In this document: in pieces, positions 3,491 through 54,601 of the stretch
Layout: each line of letters begins with the position of its first letter
Position numbering within the stretch: the first letter of the stretch is position 1
Source: an uncultured Jannaschia sp.
GTDB taxonomy: Bacteria; Pseudomonadota; Alphaproteobacteria; Rhodobacterales; Rhodobacteraceae
Direction: 5' to 3'
Assembly (NCBI RefSeq): GCF_947494025.1
Contig: NZ_CANLTQ010000005.1
Coordinates: forward strand, 166,754 to 230,753
Length of the DNA: 64,000 bases
Made by a program: the position numbers and the translations under genes
Notes under the pieces: model-generated
The model's database searches: none
The model's input: the letters and a program-made list of their open reading frames with translations, nothing else
What the model was told of the DNA's origin: nothing

Positions 3491-4163
3491 AACCCGGGCC
3501 GTTTCGGCCAGGATCGTGGGCTTCGGCATCGCGGCCATCGTGGTGATCCTCGCCGCGGCGGCCGTGTTCCTGTTCGCGACGTTGCCCGACGGCAACGCCT
3601 TCAACGCCCGGGTGGAGCGGCTCTTCATCGAATCCGACCTGACGCAGCGCGCGGAAATCCGGCTTCTGGAGGTGCTGGCCCAGTCCGGGACCGCGTTCAG
3701 CGACGTGCTGGCGAGCTACCGGGTCATCATCTTCGTCCTTCTCGTCTTCGCGACCGCGCTTCTCATCGCCTGCGTCGTGCTGCTGGTCGCGATCGTCACG
3801 CTGAACCGGCGGATGGGGGAGATCGAGCGGTCGGGCATCCAGGTCACGTCATTGATCCTCGCGCGGGCGGAGAACGCGGTGATGCTGAACGACATCGAGC
3901 TGAAGCTGACCGACGCCGCGATGGAAACGCTGAGCGTTCTGGCCGAGGCCCGGCTCGACGGCGACATGCTGACCGGCGCGCAGATCGAATCGGTCATCAC
4001 CGGCAAGCCCGAAGCGGATTGCGAGGAGGCGGCGGGCGCCACGCGGATCAAGCGGCTGCGCGACGCGCTCGGCAACCAGATCGTGACGCAGCTCCTGATC
4101 CGCAACATCACGCGGCAGGGCTACGTTCTGGCACTCGATCCGAAGGTGATCCGGATGACGTGA
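3462..4163 (+). CDS. Membrane-anchored winged-helix (OmpR/ToxR-type) protein
   Basis: The GTG at 3462 is preferred because AAGGAAGG precedes it; the track's earlier ATG lies inside the upstream gene. The 233-residue protein has two membrane segments (about residues 18-41 and 87-114) bracketing a ~45-residue loop. A C-terminal domain (about 145-227) follows the pattern of the OmpR C-terminal winged helix: LTDAAMETLSVLAE, then DMLTGAQIESVITG, then IKRLRDALGN, and finally the ITRQGYVL hairpin that resembles the VRGxGYRL signature. This suggests a DNA-binding domain tethered to the inner membrane, as in ToxR or CadC but with the membrane part at the N terminus. The wing assignment is by eye. Confidence 0.7.
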   Translation: MPASSSSVTETRAVSARIVGFGIAAIVVILAAAAVFLFATLPDGNAFNARVERLFIESDLTQRAEIRLLEVLAQSGTAFSDVLASYRVIIFVLLVFATALLIACVVLLVAIVTLNRRMGEIERSGIQVTSLILARAENAVMLNDIELKLTDAAMETLSVLAEARLDGDMLTGAQIESVITGKPEADCEEAAGATRIKRLRDALGNQIVTQLLIRNITRQGYVLALDPKVIRMT

Positions 4164-15838: not shown

Positions 15839-16636
15839 TCAATCGCTAGCCAGATGATCGGGATCGTGTCCGCGCCCCGCGGCCATGTCGCGCAACCGCG
15901 ACCACAACCCGTAGACGCCGCCGACCCCCCGGGCGCCGCCGAGGATGGTCTCGAAGGCGGCGGGCTCGCGCGCCATCGCCGCCTTGGCGAGCCGGTCCTG
16001 CGTCGCGGTCAGCGCTGCGTCCAGCCCGTCCTGCCACGCCCCGACCGGACCGAGATCGGCGAGTGGCCGACCGAAGGCCGCGAGCGCTTCGGGGCGCTTC
16101 TCGGACCAGAACGGATATTCGATCGCCAGCGGCAGGGCCATCGCACCCGGCACCCGCGCCATCAGATGCGCGAGACCGGGCCGGAGCGCGACGGGGCGTT
16201 CGCGTGGATCGGCGAAGCGGCCTTGCGCGGTCATCCAGAGCATGCGCTTCGGGTCGCCGAGCAGATGCGTGCCGACCCGGAGAAAGCGCGCCGCGCCGGC
16301 CCGGCCCTCGGGATCGACGCCGAAGATGCCGATCCGCTTCATGAAACGGTAGCGCTCGAGCGCCGTGACCTCCATCGGACCGTAGCCCTGCCGGTCGGGG
16401 AACAGCGTCTGTCGCAAGACGAGGAAGAAGGCGGGATCCCACCATCCGGGATGATTCCCGAACACGACGACCGGCCGGTCGGCAGGTATGTCCGGCTTCC
16501 CGTCCCGAAGCACGCGGACGCCGCGGAAGGCGCCACGCATCTGTCGTCGCATGACGCTGTCGAAGAACCGGACCATCCGGGGCGACAGCATCGCCACCGG
16601 ATCGCCCGGGATCGTGCCGCCGCTATTCGGCGGCAT
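15839..16636 (-). CDS. PlsC-like acyltransferase, CrtO-like
   Basis: A 265-residue glycerolipid-type acyltransferase with the catalytic HX4D motif as NHPGWWD (His62, Asp67) and a second block resembling FPDRQGYGPMEV. It lacks a cleavable signal but has hydrophobic segments that fit peripheral inner-membrane association. It starts at an ATG 14 bases inside the 3' end of the upstream desaturase gene, so the two are translationally coupled. By position between a glycosyltransferase and a carotenoid oxidase, it probably acylates the glycosyl moiety of a C30 carotenoid, as CrtO does in staphyloxanthin synthesis. A phospholipid role cannot be excluded from sequence. Confidence 0.78.
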   Translation of the reverse strand: MPPNSGGTIPGDPVAMLSPRMVRFFDSVMRRQMRGAFRGVRVLRDGKPDIPADRPVVVFGNHPGWWDPAFFLVLRQTLFPDRQGYGPMEVTALERYRFMKRIGIFGVDPEGRAGAARFLRVGTHLLGDPKRMLWMTAQGRFADPRERPVALRPGLAHLMARVPGAMALPLAIEYPFWSEKRPEALAAFGRPLADLGPVGAWQDGLDAALTATQDRLAKAAMAREPAAFETILGGARGVGGVYGLWSRLRDMAAGRGHDPDHLASD

Positions 16637-18134
16637 GGGTATTGGCGGTGGCGTCGCGGTGCAGGCTGTCGGCGGCGATCCAGCCCGACATCAGCGCCAT
16701 CGGCATGCCCGGTCCCGGATGCGCGCTGCCGCCGGCGAGGTAGAGATCCTGCACCTGCCGCGAGCGGTTGCCGGGCTTGAAGGCGCCGTTGATGCGACCG
16801 TGGCTCGCCAGCCCGTAGATCGCCCCGTCGAGCACCTTGTAGCGGTCGTGGATGTCCTGCGGGGTCAGCGCCCGCTCGAACACGATCCGCTCTTCGAGGT
16901 CGTCCATGCCGGCGGCGCGGGCGAGCTTGTCCATGATCTTCGCCCGCTCCACCGGCAGCATTCGGGACCAGTCGTGGCCGGGCCGCAGATGCGGCGTGTG
17001 GACGAGGATGTAGAGCGCCTCGCCCCCCTCCGGCGCGACGCCGGGCTCGGTCCGCGCGGGGGCGGCGATGTAGGCGGTCGGGTCGGGCGCGGGCACGCCC
17101 CGGTCGTAGATCGCGCCGAACTCTTCCTTCGGGTCGCGGGAAAAGACGAAGTTGTGGTGCGCCAGATGCTCGTAGGCTCGGTCGAGCCCGAGATAGAGCA
17201 CGATGCCGGAACAGGCCGCCTCGCGCGACTTGTAGCCGAATTTCTGCCAGGCCTTGCCGCCGACGAGCTCCCGGTAGGTGCGCACGGAATCCATGTTGGA
17301 GACGACCTTGTCGAAGCGCAACGTCTCGCCGTTCGCGACGATTGCCACGGCGCGGCCGCCCTCGACCTCGATGCGCTCCACGTCGACGCCGGTGCGGTAA
17401 TCCACGCCCAGCTCCTCGCCCAGCCGGGTGAGGGCGGCGGGCACGGCGCGGGTGCCGCCGATCGGATACCACACGCCCTCGCCCTGCTGCATTTGCGCGA
17501 TGCCGCAAAGGACGGCGGGCGCGGCCAGGGGGGAGGAGCCGATATACTGGATGAAATGCTCCAGCATCTGTGCCACGCGGGGGTCGCGGACGTTGCGCTT
17601 GATCTGCCCGGCCACGGTGCGGTGCATGCGGAGCGCCATGACGTCCGACAGGGTCGAGAGCGTCATGTTCTCCTTCAGGTTCATCGTGTCGCGCAGATCC
17701 TCGACCGAGCGCCAGAAGAAGAACTTGTCCGACACGTCCGACAGGCGGTCGGCGACCTCCATGAAGCGCTGGAAGCCCTGTTCGTCGCCCGGGCTGAGCT
17801 TGCCGATCTCGCGCGCCGCCTCCGCCGGGTCGTCGCGCAGGTCGAGCACCGTGCCGTCGTCGTAGAAGCAGCGCCATTGCGGGTCGAGCCGCCGCAGGTC
17901 GAGATAGTCGGAAAGATCGCGCCCCGCCTCCGCGAACACGCGTTCGAGCACCCGCGGCATCGTCAGGATCGTCGGCCCCATGTCAAAGCGGAACCCCTTC
18001 TCGGAAAGCTCCGCCGCCTTGCCGCCCAGCCAGGCGTTCTTCTCCAGGAGCGTGACCTTATGGCCCCGCGCCGCCAGCGTCGCCGCAGCGGCCAGCCCGC
18101 CCAGGCCGCCTCCGATGATGCCGACGCTGCTCAT
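16623..18134 (-). CDS. CrtP/CrtNb-like carotenoid oxidase or second desaturase
   Basis: A 503-residue FAD-dependent amine-oxidase-fold protein of the phytoene-desaturase family. The dinucleotide-binding motif IIGGGLGGLAAAATLAARGH is at residues ~6-25 and the C-terminal FAD motif DLYLAGGSAHPGPGMPMALM is near the end. It starts at an ATG overlapping the upstream gene's stop (ATGA), while the track's long frame fuses it to that gene. Its paralogue directly upstream resembles CrtN more closely, so this one is the better candidate for the oxidase (CrtP) that introduces a terminal aldehyde. The order desaturase-oxidase-acyltransferase-glycosyltransferase-dehydrogenase supports this, but a pure desaturase role remains possible. 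Confidence 0.82.
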   Translation of the reverse strand: MSSVGIIGGGLGGLAAAATLAARGHKVTLLEKNAWLGGKAAELSEKGFRFDMGPTILTMPRVLERVFAEAGRDLSDYLDLRRLDPQWRCFYDDGTVLDLRDDPAEAAREIGKLSPGDEQGFQRFMEVADRLSDVSDKFFFWRSVEDLRDTMNLKENMTLSTLSDVMALRMHRTVAGQIKRNVRDPRVAQMLEHFIQYIGSSPLAAPAVLCGIAQMQQGEGVWYPIGGTRAVPAALTRLGEELGVDYRTGVDVERIEVEGGRAVAIVANGETLRFDKVVSNMDSVRTYRELVGGKAWQKFGYKSREAACSGIVLYLGLDRAYEHLAHHNFVFSRDPKEEFGAIYDRGVPAPDPTAYIAAPARTEPGVAPEGGEALYILVHTPHLRPGHDWSRMLPVERAKIMDKLARAAGMDDLEERIVFERALTPQDIHDRYKVLDGAIYGLASHGRINGAFKPGNRSRQVQDLYLAGGSAHPGPGMPMALMSGWIAADSLHRDATANTHAAE

Positions 18135-19699
18135 TCCGTTGCCTCCTCGAGGGATTCGCCAAGACTTTGCACGTTCGGGACGGGCAAGCCCAGATCCTCG
18201 GCCGCGAGTTTCGAGGCGATCCGCGCGCTCTCGAAGATGGTGGGCAGGCCGGAGCCCGGATGCGTGCCGCCGCCGGTGAGATAGACGCCGTCGACGTCCT
18301 CGAACCGGTTGCGCGGCCGCCAGTGCAGCATCTGCCCCAGGTTGTGCGCGAGGTTGAAGGTCGCGCCCCGGAAGATGCCCATCCGGCTTTCCCAGTCGGC
18401 CGGCGTGATCATCCGCTCGGTCCGGATGCGCGGACGGATGTCGTGCCCGGTCAGCCGCGACAGGCGGTCGAGGATCTTCTCGCGGTAGCGCGGTCCCATC
18501 TCGTCCCAATCGACCGCGCCGTTGAGGTTGCCCGTCGGCACCAGCACGTAAAGCGTCGAATGTCCCTCGGGCGCGAGCGTGGGGTCGGTGACGGAGGCGT
18601 TCTGGACGTAGATCGTCGGCTCCTCCGGCGCGAGTCCCGCCTCGATCTCGCGGATGTTCTCCACGTAATTCGAGGACATGTGGATCGAATGATGGTGCAG
18701 GTCGTCGAGCCGCCCCTCGAGCCCGAGATAGAGCATGAAGGTGGAGCAGGAATATTTCTTCGAGTCGATCTTGGCGTCGGTCCAGCGCCGACGCAGGCGG
18801 TCGGGGATCAGCGTCTTGGCCGAGGTCGCGAAGTCGCCGTTCATCACCACGGCATCGGCCTCGATCGTCTCGTCGTCGATACGCACGGCGCGGGCGCGGC
18901 GGCCGTCGAACGCGATCTCGCGGGCGGGGGCGGACAGGCGGATGTCCACGCCCATCTCGCGCGCCACACGAGCCATCGCGCGCGGGATCGCGTTGCAGCC
19001 GCCGATCGGATGGAACACGCCGAAGCCGTATTCGATATGTGCCACGATCGTGAAGAGCGACGGACACTTGAACGGGCTCATGCCGAGGTATTTCGACTGG
19101 AAGCTGAAGGCGAGGCGCAGGTCGGGATGCTTGAACCAGCGGCGCAGGTCCTGATCCACCGTCGCCCAGGGCCGCAGCTTCGGCAGCGCGCGCACCATGT
19201 CGCCGCGCAGGAAGTCCCGCGGGCCGTGGAACGGACGCTGCAGGATGGGCCGGAACGCGTCGAACTTGGCGATGTTCGCGGCAAGATAGCGCGGCACGCT
19301 GCGCGCATCCTCCGGGCTGATCCGCGCGGCTTCCGCCGTCAGGCGCTCGATGTCGGGCGTGGCGTCGAAGGTGTTGCCGTCGTGGAAGTGCAGCCGGTAC
19401 ATCGGGTCGAGCCGGCGCAGATCCACCTCCGCATCCAGATCGTATCCGCAGGCGCCGAAAATCTCGCGCAGGATTTCGGGGTAAAGGTAGAAGGTCGGGC
19501 CGTAATCGAAGGTGAAGCCGTCCTGCGTGAAGCTCGCGGTGCGGCCGCCGACGCGGTCCTCGCGCTCCAGAAGCGTCACCTCCGCGCCCGAGGCCCGCAG
19601 GAGCATCGCCGTGGCCAGTCCCCCGGGGCCCGCCCCGATCACCACGACGCGTCGGGCACCCGCCCGGCGCCCCGCGAAACGTCCACCCAGCGCGTTCAT
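18131..19699 (-). CDS. crtN: CrtN-like diapophytoene/squalene desaturase
   Basis: A 522-residue FAD-dependent desaturase with the dinucleotide motif VVVIGAGPGGLATAMLL at about residues 18-34 and the C-terminal GGGTHPGSGLPTIFESA signature of carotenoid desaturases. The internal YSCSTFMLYLGLEG, NIREIEAG and APEGHSTLYVLVPT segments read like dehydrosqualene desaturase CrtN of Staphylococcus. The ATG at 19699 is preferred because GGGAGA precedes it; the track's start at 19840 lies in the divergent promoter region. It heads the leftward operon, back-to-back with hpnC. The likely substrate is squalene supplied by HpnCDE, which is an inference from context. Confidence 0.85.
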   Translation of the reverse strand: MNALGGRFAGRRAGARRVVVIGAGPGGLATAMLLRASGAEVTLLEREDRVGGRTASFTQDGFTFDYGPTFYLYPEILREIFGACGYDLDAEVDLRRLDPMYRLHFHDGNTFDATPDIERLTAEAARISPEDARSVPRYLAANIAKFDAFRPILQRPFHGPRDFLRGDMVRALPKLRPWATVDQDLRRWFKHPDLRLAFSFQSKYLGMSPFKCPSLFTIVAHIEYGFGVFHPIGGCNAIPRAMARVAREMGVDIRLSAPAREIAFDGRRARAVRIDDETIEADAVVMNGDFATSAKTLIPDRLRRRWTDAKIDSKKYSCSTFMLYLGLEGRLDDLHHHSIHMSSNYVENIREIEAGLAPEEPTIYVQNASVTDPTLAPEGHSTLYVLVPTGNLNGAVDWDEMGPRYREKILDRLSRLTGHDIRPRIRTERMITPADWESRMGIFRGATFNLAHNLGQMLHWRPRNRFEDVDGVYLTGGGTHPGSGLPTIFESARIASKLAAEDLGLPVPNVQSLGESLEEATE

Positions 19700-19742
19700 C
19701 GATCGTCTCCCGTCGTCGTTGCGGTCCGGATGCGTCGCGAAC

Positions 19743-19807
19743 CCGGATTGCCAAATCCGGACAATGGCCTGATGGTTCCCCCGAGACCAGACGCCGTGCC
19801 GTCTGGT
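19743..19807. promoter_or_regulatory. Two inverted repeats in the crtN-hpnC divergent promoter region
   Basis: CCGGATT-GCCA-AATCCGG (19743-19760) and ACCAGACG-CCGTGC-CGTCTGGT (19786-19807) are perfect palindromes in the 228-bp gap between the two divergent carotenoid operons. Such paired dyads often bind a regulator controlling both directions. They do not fit the PpsR/CrtJ consensus TGT-N12-ACA. The rest of the gap shows an AT-rich TTAATATCTT stretch that could be a promoter. Confidence 0.5.
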
Positions 19808-19927
19808 AGGACACCGGGTCGCAGGGCGGGGGAGCGGCACATGTTAATATCTTCTCCGGAACACCCGGCGATCTAAGTCGATGCCGGGAATTGTCACGCA
19901 ACCATCACCTGAGGGGGCCGAACGCAC

Positions 19928-20800
19928 ATGACGCTCGCCGAGGAACGCTGGACCGAGACCCGGATCGACCGGTCGTCGTCGGATCTCGACCGTGCGGCGC
20001 GTCGGGAGAACTTTCCGGTGGCCTCGCGCCTGCTGCCGTCGGGCATTCGCGGCAAGGTCGTGGCGTTCTACCGGTTCGCGCGCGCCGCTGACGACATCGC
20101 CGACGACCCCGACACGACGCCGGAGGCGAAGCTCGCCCGGCTCGATGACTTCGCGCGCGGCCTCGCGGGGGATGACGGGGCAGGTCCGGCCGCGGCGCTA
20201 CGTCACGCGCTCCACGACGGGCGCGATGCCCCGGATGCCGTCGCCCTCGCTGCGGCGGGCGACCTGCTCGTGGCGTTCCGCCGGGACGCGCGCGGGATCG
20301 CCTGCGCCGACTGGGCCGATCTGATGTCCTATTGCGACGCCTCCGCCGTGCCCGTCGGCCGGTTCCTTCTGGCCGTCCACGGCGAAAACGCGGCGACCCA
20401 CGGACCGTCCGACGCCCTTTGCGCCGCACTGCAGGTCCTCAACCACCTGCAGGATCTCGGGCCGGACCATCGCGCCCTCGACCGCCGCTACCTGCCCGGC
20501 GACTGGATGGCGGCCGAGGGGGCCGCCGATGCCGATCTGGGCCGCCCGTTCCTGACGCCCGCCCTCGGACGGGTGGTCGCGCGTACGCTGGACGCGTCCG
20601 ACGTGCTTCTGACGCGGGCCGCCCCGCTGCCCGGCCTCGTCGCCGCGCGCGGCCTGCGCCTCCAGGCGGCGGCCACTCTCGCGCTGGCCCGGCGCTTGCA
20701 GGCGCGGCTGCGCCGGGGCGATCCGCTGACCCGGCGCGTGGCGCTTCGCCGCACCGACTTCGCCCTGGCCGGCCTGTCATGCCTGCGGTTCGTCCCATGA
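19928..20800 (+). CDS. hpnC: Hydroxysqualene synthase HpnC
   Basis: A 290-residue squalene/phytoene synthase-fold protein. The start region RRENFPVASRLLP and first aspartate-rich motif ARAADDIADD (residues 51-60) are typical of HpnC. The second metal-binding motif appears as NHLQDLGPDHRALDR near residue 170. In the three-step bacterial route, HpnC converts presqualene diphosphate (made by HpnD) to hydroxysqualene. The ATG at 19928 follows GAGGGGG. Its stop overlaps the hpnD start (ATGA), and the gene is divergent from crtN. Confidence 0.92.
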   Translation: MTLAEERWTETRIDRSSSDLDRAARRENFPVASRLLPSGIRGKVVAFYRFARAADDIADDPDTTPEAKLARLDDFARGLAGDDGAGPAAALRHALHDGRDAPDAVALAAAGDLLVAFRRDARGIACADWADLMSYCDASAVPVGRFLLAVHGENAATHGPSDALCAALQVLNHLQDLGPDHRALDRRYLPGDWMAAEGAADADLGRPFLTPALGRVVARTLDASDVLLTRAAPLPGLVAARGLRLQAAATLALARRLQARLRRGDPLTRRVALRRTDFALAGLSCLRFVP

Positions 20801-21663
20801 GCTTTGCCCGGACGACCAGCGAACGGGCCGACCGGGAGGAGGTGCGTCGCGTCGTGGCAACGGCCGGATCGAGCTTCGCGGCCGGCATGCGCGTCCTGCC
20901 CCAAAAGCGCCGCCGCGCGATCCACGCCGTCTACGCGCTTTGCCGGGCGGTGGACGACATCGCCGACGGCGACGTGCCCGACGCGCGCGACGTCGCCGCC
21001 CGCGCCGCGCTCCTCGATCGCTGGGAGGGGGAGCTGGATGCGGTCTTCGACGGCACACCCCGCACCGCCATCGGCGCGGAGATCGCGCGCACGCTCGACT
21101 GGCTCGACCTACCCAAGCGGGAATTCGTGATGGTCCTCGACGGGATGCGGATGGACGCCGCCGCCATCGTCGCTCCGGATGCAGAGCTGTTCTCCGCCTA
21201 TATCCGCCGCGTCGCGGGCTCCGTCGGCATCCTCTCGATGATCTGCTTCGGCGCCTGGCGCGGCGCCTGCTCCGAGCGTTTCGCGCTCAACCTCGCGCGC
21301 GGGTTGCAGGTGATGAACATCCTGCGCGACGTGGAGGCGGACGCGAAGATGGGCCGCCTCTACCTGCCCGCGCATGTGCTGCGCGCCGCCGGCCTGCCCG
21401 AAGACCCCGCGCAGATCGTCCGCCACCCGAAACTCTCCGATGCGCGCGCGCTCCTCGGCCGGGAAGCGCGACAGGCCTTCGACGCCGCCGCCGTGGAGAT
21501 CGGCGCGCATCGCCGCACGCTGCTCCTGCCCGCGCTGATGATGATGGGCCCCTACGAGCGGCTGCTCCGCCGGTGGGAGGCCGACTGGTCCCGCCCGCCG
21601 CCGGTTCGTTCGCGGCTTGGCAAGGTCGCAGACGGGCTGGCCGCGGTCGCGCGTCCCGTCTGA
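20797..21663 (+). CDS. hpnD: Presqualene diphosphate synthase HpnD
   Basis: A 288-residue trans-isoprenyl diphosphate synthase with both metal-binding motifs: CRAVDDIADGD and ILRDVEADAKMGRLYLP. These define squalene/phytoene synthases; the HpnD type condenses two farnesyl diphosphates to presqualene diphosphate. The track's frame starts upstream at 20332 in hpnC, but the ATG at 20797 overlaps the hpnC stop and begins a normal N terminus (MSFARTTSERADREEV). The hpnE ATG directly follows its stop codon, showing tight coupling of the three squalene genes. Confidence 0.92.
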   Translation: MSFARTTSERADREEVRRVVATAGSSFAAGMRVLPQKRRRAIHAVYALCRAVDDIADGDVPDARDVAARAALLDRWEGELDAVFDGTPRTAIGAEIARTLDWLDLPKREFVMVLDGMRMDAAAIVAPDAELFSAYIRRVAGSVGILSMICFGAWRGACSERFALNLARGLQVMNILRDVEADAKMGRLYLPAHVLRAAGLPEDPAQIVRHPKLSDARALLGREARQAFDAAAVEIGAHRRTLLLPALMMMGPYERLLRRWEADWSRPPPVRSRLGKVADGLAAVARPV

Positions 21664-22914
21664 ATGGGGCGCATCCTCGTCATCGGCGCCGGGCTCGCCG
21701 GCCTCGTCGCGGCCGAGCGTCTGTCGGATGCGGGCCACGCGGTGGAGGTGCTCGAGGCCTCGCCGAAGGCCGGGGGGCGCTGCCGGTCCTATCGGGACAC
21801 GAGGCTCGACCGGGTGATCGACAACGGCAACCACCTGATCCTGTCGGGCAACCGCGCCGTGCTGGACTGGGCCGCGCGCATCGGCGGCGCGGACCGGCTC
21901 GTGACGGGGGAGGCGGTCTATCCGTTTCTCGACCTCGCCAGCGGGGCGCGGTGGACGATCCGACCCGGCGCGGGCCCGCTCGGCATCCTCCGTCGCGCCG
22001 CACGCCCGCCCGGCATCTCCGCTGCGGCGCTCGGCCGGGACGCTGCCCGCCTTCTCGCCGCGCGCCGGACGGCCAGCGTGGCCGACGTCATCGCGCGCGG
22101 TCCGGCCTGGCCCGCGTTCTGGGATCCGATGACCCGCGCCGTCCTGAACGAGCCGCCCGAGACGGGCAGCGCCCCGCTCCTGCGCGCCGCGTTCCTGCGA
22201 AGCTTCGCGCGGGGGGCGGGCGCGGTGCGGCCCGTCTTCGCGCCGGACGGGCTCGGCCCCGCGCTCGTCGATCCCGCGCTGCCGCTTCTCGAGGGTCGCG
22301 GTGTCCGCATTCGCTATCGCAGCCCCGTCACCGCCTTGCGTGGCGCGGATCGCCTCGAGGTCATCGAAACTGCGGACGGTCCCGTCACGTTCGGCTCGGG
22401 GGATACGGCCATCCTCGCCGTTCCTGCGCGACAGGCGGCGGCGCTCCTGCCGCGGGTGGAGATGCCGGGGCCGGGGCGCACGATCGTGAACGCGCATTTC
22501 CTGGCGCCGGAAAGCGGTCTGCCGCCGGTGCTCGCCCTTCTCGGCGGCGCGGCGCAATGGCTGTTCCGGCGCGGCGACGTCGTTTCCGTCACCGTCTCGG
22601 CGGCCGAGGCGTCGGAGGTGGAGGGCCTGCCGCGCGAGGCGACGCTCGCCCGGCTCTGGCGCGACGTGGCCGGCGCGATCTTCGCGCATGGCGGGATGGT
22701 CCCCGACGCGATGCCGGTCGCACGCCTGCTGCGGGAGAAGGCCGCGACCTTTGACCAGTCGCCCGCCGGCGCGGCCCGCCGGCCCGTCGTCCGCACCCCA
22801 TGGCCGAACCTGTTACTCGCCGGGGATCATGTCCGAACGGGCTTGCCCGCGACGCTCGAGGGGGCGGTCCGTTCCGGCCTCGCCGCTGCACGGCTCGCCG
22901 CGCAGGCCGCCTGA
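21664..22914 (+). CDS. hpnE: Squalene-forming FAD-dependent oxidoreductase HpnE
   Basis: A 416-residue flavoprotein of the amine oxidase/desaturase superfamily. It starts with the FAD-binding ILVIGAGLAGLVAAERLSDA motif and ends with WPNLLLAGDHVRTGLPATLE, the C-terminal signature of this group. HpnE reduces hydroxysqualene to squalene in the HpnCDE pathway. It begins immediately after the hpnD stop. Its last ~100 bp overlap the 3' end of a convergent gene. Presence of all three genes in order makes the squalene pathway assignment strong. Confidence 0.9.
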   Translation: MGRILVIGAGLAGLVAAERLSDAGHAVEVLEASPKAGGRCRSYRDTRLDRVIDNGNHLILSGNRAVLDWAARIGGADRLVTGEAVYPFLDLASGARWTIRPGAGPLGILRRAARPPGISAAALGRDAARLLAARRTASVADVIARGPAWPAFWDPMTRAVLNEPPETGSAPLLRAAFLRSFARGAGAVRPVFAPDGLGPALVDPALPLLEGRGVRIRYRSPVTALRGADRLEVIETADGPVTFGSGDTAILAVPARQAAALLPRVEMPGPGRTIVNAHFLAPESGLPPVLALLGGAAQWLFRRGDVVSVTVSAAEASEVEGLPREATLARLWRDVAGAIFAHGGMVPDAMPVARLLREKAATFDQSPAGAARRPVVRTPWPNLLLAGDHVRTGLPATLEGAVRSGLAAARLAAQAA

Positions 22915-52144: not shown

Positions 52145-52894
52145 ATGCGAAGGGACGCCGCCGACGGTCCGGCAGGTCGGAGGAGCCGCTCGGGGCCCGC
52201 GCGGGACCGCGCCCTCCTTGCCGTGCTGATCGATGCCGACAACATTCCGGCGAAATACGCCGAGGCGATCCTGAAGGAGATCACCGGACTGGGCGAACCG
52301 GCGCTCAGGCGGGTCTACGGCGACTGGTCGGGCGGGCATCTTCGGAGCTGGGCGGATAAGGTGCTGGAGCTTGGCCTCGTCGCGCATCAGGAAACGGCGA
52401 ACACCAAGGGCAAGAACGCCTCTGACATCGGCCTCGTGATCGACGCGATGGACATCCTCCATTCGGGCCGGTTCGACGGCTTCGTGCTCGTCTCCTCCGA
52501 CAGCGACTTCACGCGGCTGGCCTCCCGCATCCGCGAGGAAGGGCTCGACGTGATCGGGATCGGCGAGGGCAAGGCCCCGGAATCGCTCAGGAATGTCTGC
52601 AATCGCTTTATCCTGATCGAGAACCTCGTCGACGAGCCGGCGGCGCAGAAGGACGCGCCGACCAAGCGGCTGCCGCTCGACGCGCTGCCGCTGATCCTGC
52701 GGGCGATGGAGCGGATGGATCAGGACGACGAGTGGTACGCGATGGGCGCGCTCGGCAGCCAGATCATGGCGGAGATGCCGGACTTCGACACGCGCACCTA
52801 CGGCAAGCGCAAGCTTTCGGATCTTGTGGGCGAAATCAAGCGGCTGGAGACGCGGATGGACGGCACGCAGGTCATGGTGCGGCGCCGGGACTGA
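52145..52894 (+). CDS. NYN-domain protein with OST-HTH/LOTUS tail
   Basis: A 249-residue protein with a PIN-like NYN nuclease domain: LLAVLIDADNIPAKYA (acidic DxDN), RVYGDW, KGKNASDIGLVIDAMDIL and FVLVSSDSDFTRLASRIREEG hold the conserved acidic residues. The C-terminal ~70 residues (LPLILRAMERMDQDDEWYAMGALGSQIM onward) fit an OST-HTH/LOTUS RNA-binding domain. Such proteins are presumed RNases. The ATG at 52145 follows AAAGGAA. It is separated by repeats from an MFS gene downstream. Confidence 0.88.
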   Translation: MRRDAADGPAGRRSRSGPARDRALLAVLIDADNIPAKYAEAILKEITGLGEPALRRVYGDWSGGHLRSWADKVLELGLVAHQETANTKGKNASDIGLVIDAMDILHSGRFDGFVLVSSDSDFTRLASRIREEGLDVIGIGEGKAPESLRNVCNRFILIENLVDEPAAQKDAPTKRLPLDALPLILRAMERMDQDDEWYAMGALGSQIMAEMPDFDTRTYGKRKLSDLVGEIKRLETRMDGTQVMVRRRD

Positions 52895-52907
52895 CGCCGT
52901 CCGCCGC

Positions 52908-52940
52908 GTGTTACGGCCGTGTTACGGCTGTGTTACGGCT
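52908..52940. repeat. Three tandem 11-bp repeats (GTGTTACGGCY)
   Basis: GTGTTACGGCC is followed by two copies of GTGTTACGGCT with no gap, and a fourth degenerate copy (GTGGCACAGCC) follows. The 11-bp period is about one helical turn. The array lies just past the NYN gene stop and before the MFS gene. Confidence 0.85.
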
Positions 52941-52952
52941 GTGGCACAGCCG
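52936..52952. promoter_or_regulatory. Perfect 17-bp palindrome before the MFS gene
   Basis: CGGCTGTG-G-CACAGCCG is an 8+1+8 inverted repeat, made from the end of the 11-bp repeat array and the degenerate fourth copy. It is 38 bp before the MFS start and could be an operator; as a stem without a T-run it is less likely to be a terminator. Confidence 0.55.
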
Positions 52953-52989
52953 TGGGACGGCATCGCTCTCCCCCATCGACAGGCCAGCC

Positions 52990-54135
52990 ATGTCCAGACG
53001 CACCCTCGTGGCGCTGCTCGCCTTTCTGGCCTTCGTCAGCCTCGGCCTGCCGGACGGCCTCCTTGGCGTGTCGTGGCCCTCCATGCGGGACAGCTTCGGC
53101 CTGCCGCTCGACGCGCTCGGCCTGTTCGTCGGGTTCGCGACGGCGGGCTATCTGCTGTCGAGCTTCGTGAGCGGGGCGGTCCTGCGGCACGTGTCGCTCG
53201 GCGCGCTGCTGACGCTTTCGACGGGCGCGGCCGCCACGGCGCTCCTCCTCGTCGCGGCGGCGCCGGTCTGGCCGGTCCTCCTGTTCGCCGCGTTCCTCGC
53301 GGGTCTCGGCGGCGGGGCGATCGACGCAGGACTGAACGCCTACGGGGCGGTACATTTCTCGGCGCGCGTCCTGAACTGGCTGCATGCGTTTTTCGGGCTC
53401 GGCACGACGCTCGGGCCGCTGATCGTGACGGGCGTGCTGAGCTCGGGCCTGATCTGGCGCTGGAGCTACGCCATCGTCGGTTGCGCGCAGATCGCGTTGG
53501 CGATCACTTTCCTCGTGACGCGCGACCGCTGGCGGCCGGTCGAGGTGGAAGACACGGCGCCCCTCGCCTCCGCCGGGTCGGTGGAGACGTTGCGACGCCC
53601 GGTCGTCTGGCTGGGGATGGGGCTGTTCTTCCTCTACAGCGGCGTCGAGCTCGCCACGGCGACATGGAGCTATTCGTTGCTGACGCAGGAGCGCGGCGTC
53701 GATGAGACGATAGCGGGACTTTTCGTCACCCTCTACTGGGGGAGCCTGATGGTCGGGCGCGTGCTGTTCGGCTTTGTCGCCGACCGCCTGCCGCTGGTGG
53801 CGACGCTGCGGGCCTGCATCGCGGCGAGCGTCCTCGGGGCGCTCCTGTTCTGGCTGGGCACGCCCGCCCTGTCGCTCGCCGGACTGATGCTGATGGGGTT
53901 CTCGCTCGCGCCGATCTTCGCTTCGCTCATCAGCCTGACGCCCGGCCGCGTCGGCCGCGACCACGCCGACAGCGCCATCGGCTACCAGATCGCCGCGGCG
54001 GGCCTCGGGGGCGCGGTCGTGACGGCGACGCTGGGGCTCCTCGCCGACGAGCTCGGGCTCGACGTGATCGGGGTGGCGATCTTCGCGGCGACGCTGCTGC
54101 TGCTCGCGGCCTACGAGGGGTTCATGCGGAGATAG
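52990..54135 (+). CDS. MFS transporter
   Basis: A 381-residue, about 12-helix major facilitator carrier beginning MSRRTLVALLAFLAFVSLGLPDGLLGVSWPSM. The LPDGLLG motif and the loop between the two halves (TRDRWRPVEVEDTAPLASAGS) are typical of the small fucose/glucose-permease-like and drug-transporter-like MFS branch. The second half has WGSLMVGRVLFGFVADRLP. The ATG at 52990 lies 38 bp after a palindrome. Substrate unknown; a convergent MarR-type gene follows. Confidence 0.88.
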   Translation: MSRRTLVALLAFLAFVSLGLPDGLLGVSWPSMRDSFGLPLDALGLFVGFATAGYLLSSFVSGAVLRHVSLGALLTLSTGAAATALLLVAAAPVWPVLLFAAFLAGLGGGAIDAGLNAYGAVHFSARVLNWLHAFFGLGTTLGPLIVTGVLSSGLIWRWSYAIVGCAQIALAITFLVTRDRWRPVEVEDTAPLASAGSVETLRRPVVWLGMGLFFLYSGVELATATWSYSLLTQERGVDETIAGLFVTLYWGSLMVGRVLFGFVADRLPLVATLRACIAASVLGALLFWLGTPALSLAGLMLMGFSLAPIFASLISLTPGRVGRDHADSAIGYQIAAAGLGGAVVTATLGLLADELGLDVIGVAIFAATLLLLAAYEGFMRR

Positions 54136-54148
54136 GGGCGGCGGGGCG

Positions 54149-54601
54149 CTAGTCCTCCCCCTCCCGCGTGCCGAACTGGACCCGCATCTCGCGCAGCACG
54201 GGGATGGCGGCGCGGGTGCGGGCGAGGCCGATCTCGCGGACGGCCTCTGTCATGATCGGGCGGATCGCGGCCAGCGCCGCCTCCCGCGCGGTCTGGCCGG
54301 CGGGGGAGATGGCGACCCGCTTGCGCCGGGCATCGTCCCAGTCCGGGCGGACATGGATGTACCCCGCCCATTCCAGACGGTTCAGCGTGTTCGTCAGCGC
54401 CCCCCGGGTCAGGTGGAACAGGCGGGCGAGCTCCGCCGGGCTGCGCTCCTCCCGGTGCTGGGCGAGGTAGTTCAGCACGATGAAATGCGACAGCTCCATC
54501 CCCTTCGGCAGCGCGCTGCGCAGGCGGGCGCGGACGAGCTGATCGGCCGTGAGCATCTCGGAGAAGAGGGCGACGGCGAGCTTTTCGGCATCGTCGCTCA
54601 C
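54149..54601 (-). CDS. MarR-family transcriptional regulator
   Basis: A 150-residue winged-helix regulator. The DNA-binding region is PAELARLFHLTRGALTNTLNRLEWAGYIHVRPDWDDARRKRVAISPAG, with the wing and the conserved arginines. The GTG at 54601 begins VSDDAEKLAV; the track's longer frame has no support. It is convergent with the MFS gene. MarR proteins often respond to small aromatic compounds or oxidants; no ligand is predicted here. Confidence 0.92.
   Translation of the reverse strand: MSDDAEKLAVALFSEMLTADQLVRARLRSALPKGMELSHFIVLNYLAQHREERSPAELARLFHLTRGALTNTLNRLEWAGYIHVRPDWDDARRKRVAISPAGQTAREAALAAIRPIMTEAVREIGLARTRAAIPVLREMRVQFGTREGED

Follow-up and report, generated by a model that had tools for sequence, protein, structure and literature searches.

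Dispersed, helically phased 11-bp repeat arrays in Jannaschia and further array families at shared loci and orientation

The array and its neighboring genes

Does a short run of tandem repeats beside a transporter gene act as the operator of that gene, or does it belong to something larger? The question is raised by one intergenic region of the window, by which we mean the whole 64-kb stretch of DNA from a marine Jannaschia that was analyzed. The original prediction described three 11-bp GTGTTACGGCY units merging into a 17-bp palindrome and proposed that a repressor binds there cooperatively and controls an MFS gene, with the product of a convergent MarR-type gene as candidate binder. The sequence itself was confirmed as described, with three units at 52908-52940 running into the palindrome at 52936-52952. 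The whole region at 52908-52961 reads GTGTTACGGCC GTGTTACGGCT GTGTTACGGCT GTGGCACAGCC GTGGGACGGC, and Tandem Repeats Finder gave the array at 52907-52954 its top score for the 64-kb window (61). The three exact copies of GTGTTACGGCY in the window all fall within this array, and four occurrences were counted when up to one mismatch was allowed, compared to 0.89 expected.

We found that the array comprises five plus-strand units, two beyond the three first noted, at a spacing of exactly 11 bp. The sequence and its alignment with 25 other copies define U1 (GTGTTACGGCC, 52908-52918), U2 (GTGTTACGGCT, 52919-52929) and U3 (GTGTTACGGCT, 52930-52940). U4 (GTGGCACAGCC, 52941-52951) has the core GTGGCAC, of the form GTGNCAC that almost all copies retain, and the weak terminal unit U5 (GTGGGACGGCA, 52952-52962) has the core GTGGGAC, which is present in most copies, not all. 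The 17-bp palindrome (CGGCTGTG-G-CACAGCCG, 52936-52952) is the overlap of U3 and U4 with the first base of U5.

Upstream, on the plus strand, lies a gene for an NYN-domain protein with an OST-HTH/LOTUS domain (52145-52894; Pfam PF01936, 3.5e-36; PF12872, 7.4e-10), with 13 bp between the end of its stop codon and the array. Downstream on the same strand is the MFS transporter gene (52990-54135; PF07690, 3.4e-28), followed by the convergent MarR-family gene on the minus strand (54149-54601; PF12802, 3.3e-12). No sigma-70-like promoter site was found within 51.8-54.8 kb. Elsewhere in the window, at 16623-22914, it was noted that several genes resemble a carotenoid-synthesis cluster (desaturase-like and synthase-like starts), with no array nearby.

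Fifteen copies in one genome and selection on their cores

A genome-wide motif search was made in G000, the window's own Jannaschia genome (4.39 Mb, 215 contigs). A two-unit motif allowing up to three mismatches gave 34 overlapping matches at 15 separate places, compared to none for a reversed control pattern, so the array is not confined to the MFS/MarR locus. A profile built from 26 copies, using sequence only, recovered the same 15 copies of G000 together with 14 from the sister species G018, all with E <= 3e-11. Across 21 Jannaschia genomes, further profile matches began at E of about 0.016 and were short and partial, and no such array was found in the 19 other Jannaschia by this search. 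We refer to these copies as family A. When 84,980 species genomes were scanned for exact two-unit matches, the only one found beyond G000 and G018 was a Thiohalomonas metagenome-assembled genome, and a scan of IMG/VR gave a single contig; neither has an extended array. An origin in phages or distant relatives was set aside, as these matches lack a three-unit array and were taken as chance. No occurrence of the long array motifs was found in the literature searched.

Family A follows one plan, in which U1 to U3 are GTGTTAYGGCY, U4 is GTGNCACANC and the weaker U5 carries GTGGGAC. The shared unit is GTGNNAY-N4 at an exact 11-bp period, with the core GTGTTAY three times, then GTGNCAC and often GTGGGAC. 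Only the inner TGTGNCAC(A) of the window's palindrome is common to the family. The full 17-bp palindrome is retained in few copies, and its outer arms are paired in 75% of cells across the copies, which is not above shuffled columns. The palindrome therefore does not appear to act as a functional dyad.

For 14 of the 15 copies in G000, the corresponding place in G018 holds an orthologue with exactly the same unit spacing, and no counterpart in G018 was found for the fifteenth (L070). Between orthologous arrays, the five core positions of each unit differed at 7 of 280 sites (2.5%) and the spacers at 55 of 224 (25%; Fisher p = 2e-14 for core versus spacer). The two middle core positions differed at 13 of 112 sites, the aligned 150-bp flanks at 17%, and the outer core of unit 4 at none of 70. 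Because cores differ at 2.5% compared to 25% in spacers and 17% in flanks, the family A cores appear to be under selection in a fixed helical register; recruitment of copies by similarity to the consensus biases this comparison toward intact cores, a bias limited by the retention of 14 of the 15 copies. The idea of cooperative binding to phased direct repeats thus stands in its general form, supported by selection on GTGNNAY cores, whereas the target, the binder and the dyad first put forward do not.

Family A copies beside unrelated genes

The genes neighboring the family A copies are unrelated to one another. Their names were mostly judged from translated starts, and they include thiY-like ABC genes, glmS, two ABC-F genes, marC, moxR, glyS/ppdK, lpdA, queA, gltD and rpsL, in addition to the NYN/MFS pair of the window. 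Some copies are flanked by convergent gene ends and one by divergent starts. One copy lies inside valS, on the antisense strand and coding in frame, in both species. Since copies are found beside unrelated genes, between convergent ends and inside valS, the context of family A is unlike that of a regulon. It was also noted that the valS array (L073, at about 4037-4091, and L087) alters a loop of ValS, with THATAVPQMSHSGNTAVTRGSA compared to ATGNPTQVAGGAPVRQT in G015.

This distribution bears directly on the proposal that the convergent MarR protein binds the array as the operator of the MFS gene. Regulators of the MarR family often act on adjacent genes, and the start of the MFS gene is only 27 bp past U5. 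However, the other 14 copies stand beside unrelated genes, between convergent ends or inside valS, and the palindrome is not conserved among copies. The MFS gene lies between the NYN and MarR genes only in G000 and G018; in most other Jannaschia these two are close convergent neighbors with neither the MFS gene nor a family A array between them, and the MFS gene thus looks like a lineage-specific insertion. A MarR gene was found near the NYN gene in 16 of the 19 other Jannaschia, every one of which is without family A, where the operator model has array and MarR occurring together. As most other species have NYN followed by MarR without MFS gene or array, MarR is not tied to family A, and we consider control of the MFS gene by this protein highly improbable.

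The placement of copies relative to transcription was also considered, as the array could act at the RNA level, where, once transcribed downstream of a gene, it would serve as a hairpin terminator, an attenuator or a stability element. Ten of the 15 copies sit after a co-directional upstream gene, the copy in the window gave a good fold (57 nt, z -5.4), and 93.8% of cells across family A copies are compatible with a G-U-rich hairpin of 13 bp. Against this, the remaining five copies are either antisense or flanked by diverging genes, the pairing counts of both palindrome and hairpin are not above column shuffles, and family C, described below, is without structure. The array region of the window had neither a terminator match nor a T run, and Rfam gave no match at the gathering score. 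An RNA-level role is therefore unlikely, and a strand-specific RNA hairpin in family A only is possible.

Further array families at the same loci

At positions of G015 syntenic to family A, we found 11-bp arrays of a different sequence, GTRCACCCCNY (family B), and at the glmS, queA and gltD loci of G008 a third, GGGTGATCYRY (family C). Where 11-bp arrays were sought de novo in other species, the search covered selected loci. In each of the three families, about three repeats end in a terminal half-unit that differs from them. Family B was present in 8 of the 21 Jannaschia, and a sample of 298 genera of the taxonomic family contained it in 6. Family C was common in G002, G003, G004, G008 and G016, and it was also found in the B-carriers G005, G009 and G010. 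Mutual exclusivity of the families was thereby ruled out, and because B and C coexist in these three genomes, the two could be distinct systems instead of variants of a single one. B and C were not above background in the two A-carriers, and G006, G011, G012, G013, G019 and G020 gave few or no matches to any family. The gene-orientation contexts of the other families were likewise mixed, at ++20/--14/+-6/-+3 and ++8/--7/+-4/-+3.

We assessed whether loci are shared by mapping the flanks of the 15 family A loci onto near-complete genomes and looking no more than 400 bp from each expected position for an array of family B or C. Family B occupied 4 of 15 mapped loci in G015 (null mean 0.03, p 1e-4) and 4 of 14 in G017 (null mean 0.16, p 3e-4), and family C occupied 3 of 14 in G008 (null mean 0.10, p 5e-4) and 2 of 13 in G016 (null mean 0.08, p 0.003); the circular-shift null lets arrays fall outside intergenic DNA, which arrays prefer, and thus yields p values that are somewhat too low; the four genomes also have common ancestry. 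The B and C arrays at shared family A loci had the same orientation in 13 of 13 cases. Inspection by eye showed more loci shared across families, in G005 and between carriers of B and C. What is new here is that phased arrays have loci and orientation common to species while their sequence family differs.

Mobile repeats or binding-site arrays

The main rival explanation is that the arrays are mobile short interspersed repeats, REP- or MITE-like with an unknown or lost transposase, that spread by copying into shared hot spots and whose present function, if any, would be secondary. The dispersed copies are near-identical, the three families are patchy over the species tree, and a relative has no array at many of the syntenic loci. 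Additionally, on the opposite strand the terminal unit of many copies starts with CGTC, like the CGTC-tagged repeats of alphaproteobacteria, for which there is no known transposase (PMC3733652). The arrays resemble REP sequences, REPINs and CGTC-tagged repeats in being short, dispersed, extragenic with some intragenic copies, lineage-specific and provided with a CGTC end (PMC3733652), but differ in their 11-bp tandem structure and in having neither an 8-9 bp stem with a 4-5 nt loop nor a RAYT. No stem of 8-9 bp was found by the tag, as the outer arms of family A are unconserved and the consensus sequences of B and C form no such stable hairpin.

G000 has no RAYT (PF01797), and a REP/RAYT system was rejected on this basis; the PF01797 match in G018 is a fragment. 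This fragment (L180, G018:C30:12639-12776) belongs to an IS200-like Y1 transposase and covers PF01797 positions 77-121. Mobility would also leave unexplained the core-specific constraint between species, as well as the identical orientation at all 13 shared loci when the arrays are oriented almost at random with respect to genes, and no ladder of decayed copies was seen in the profile search of the 21 Jannaschia. Families B and C, moreover, yield no stable hairpin on folding. We consider mobile repeats a possible explanation that falls short of probable.

Our preferred reading, which we hold to be about evenly balanced between right and wrong, is that the window feature is one member of a dispersed family of binding-site arrays with a chromosome-scale rather than a promoter role. 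From what was computed (the family, its positions, the selection on cores, and the shared positions and orientation) we infer a bound protein and a role of this scale. Each copy would be a directional stretch of about 50 bp in which three to five 7-bp cores, one per helical turn, line up along the same DNA face. The reader would most likely be an oligomeric sequence-specific DNA-binding protein placed head to tail along the array, as three or more such cores with a fixed end present the geometry typical of oligomers bound along direct repeats. Its function would probably be to organize, anchor or mark places on the chromosome rather than to control neighboring genes, and a role of this scale is proposed because the placement of the copies follows neither promoters nor gene ends nor the direction of genes. 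In related Jannaschia, families B and C would follow the same plan, in part at the same loci and in the same orientation. Against the binding-site explanation, the near-identical copies within each family suggest spread by copying, which it does not explain.

A further proposal, which we advance only tentatively and hold to be doubtful, is that the arrays are landmark sites whose loci and orientation stay fixed from species to species, whereas the 11-bp sequence recognized there is replaced (A, B or C). Such landmarks would form a chromosome-wide site system of interchangeable or turning-over specificity with a putative reader, and positions on the chromosome would then be conserved independently of the recognized sequence. 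To our knowledge, short dispersed chromosome-organizing sites are known in few bacterial lineages, mostly as single motifs. Jannaschia has three families phased at one helical turn that share loci and orientation, not sequence, and near-complete genomes exist. The genus thus allows one to ask directly whether positions persist independently of the recognized sequence.

Comparison with known systems

The closest described model for the geometry of the arrays would, by analogy, be the operators of the MerR-family proteins CarH and CarA, in which an oligomer binds, on one DNA face, a tandem series of three or four direct repeats of 11 bp, to which a pseudorepeat is sometimes added (PMC9304148). 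The repeat consensus is nnnnTnnACAn, and the operators overlap carotenoid promoters (PMC9304148). The arrays share the tandem 11-bp direct repeats on one DNA face, but differ in carrying GTGNNAY at 15 unrelated, mostly non-promoter places. By inspection, the family A unit GTGTTAYGGCY has no TnnACA, and promoter overlap of the CarH type is not seen, several arrays lying between convergent ends or inside a gene. Sites of the OmpR/PhoB family are likewise direct repeats about one helical turn apart. CenR, a response regulator of this family in Rhodobacter, recognizes TGA-N8-TGA, with sites up to 100 bp upstream of regulated units (PMC9275681). A CenR-type response regulator was rejected as the motif differs.

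KOPS, the FtsK-orienting sequences, are a chromosome-wide, gene-independent, directional motif. The arrays are similar in all three respects, but are not single 8-mers and number about 15 rather than hundreds. The recognition-helix region of FtsK gamma was identical in 20 of 21 species, with one G-to-A change in G007. FtsK was excluded as the reader, because its recognition helix does not track array family. Replichore polarity, convincing by eye in G008 and G016, was not significant on testing, as the best splits (19/25, 15/17 and 32/46) were reached by 74, 17 and 76 of 300 shuffles.

Two further observations concern the arrays of other species. In G001 (L166, family B) and G008 (L215, family C), arrays apparently lie inside the same gene at a similar place. 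In G016, the repeat TTTCACGTTTTGGGGG was found in several intergenic regions (L190, L192 and L195) where other species have arrays.
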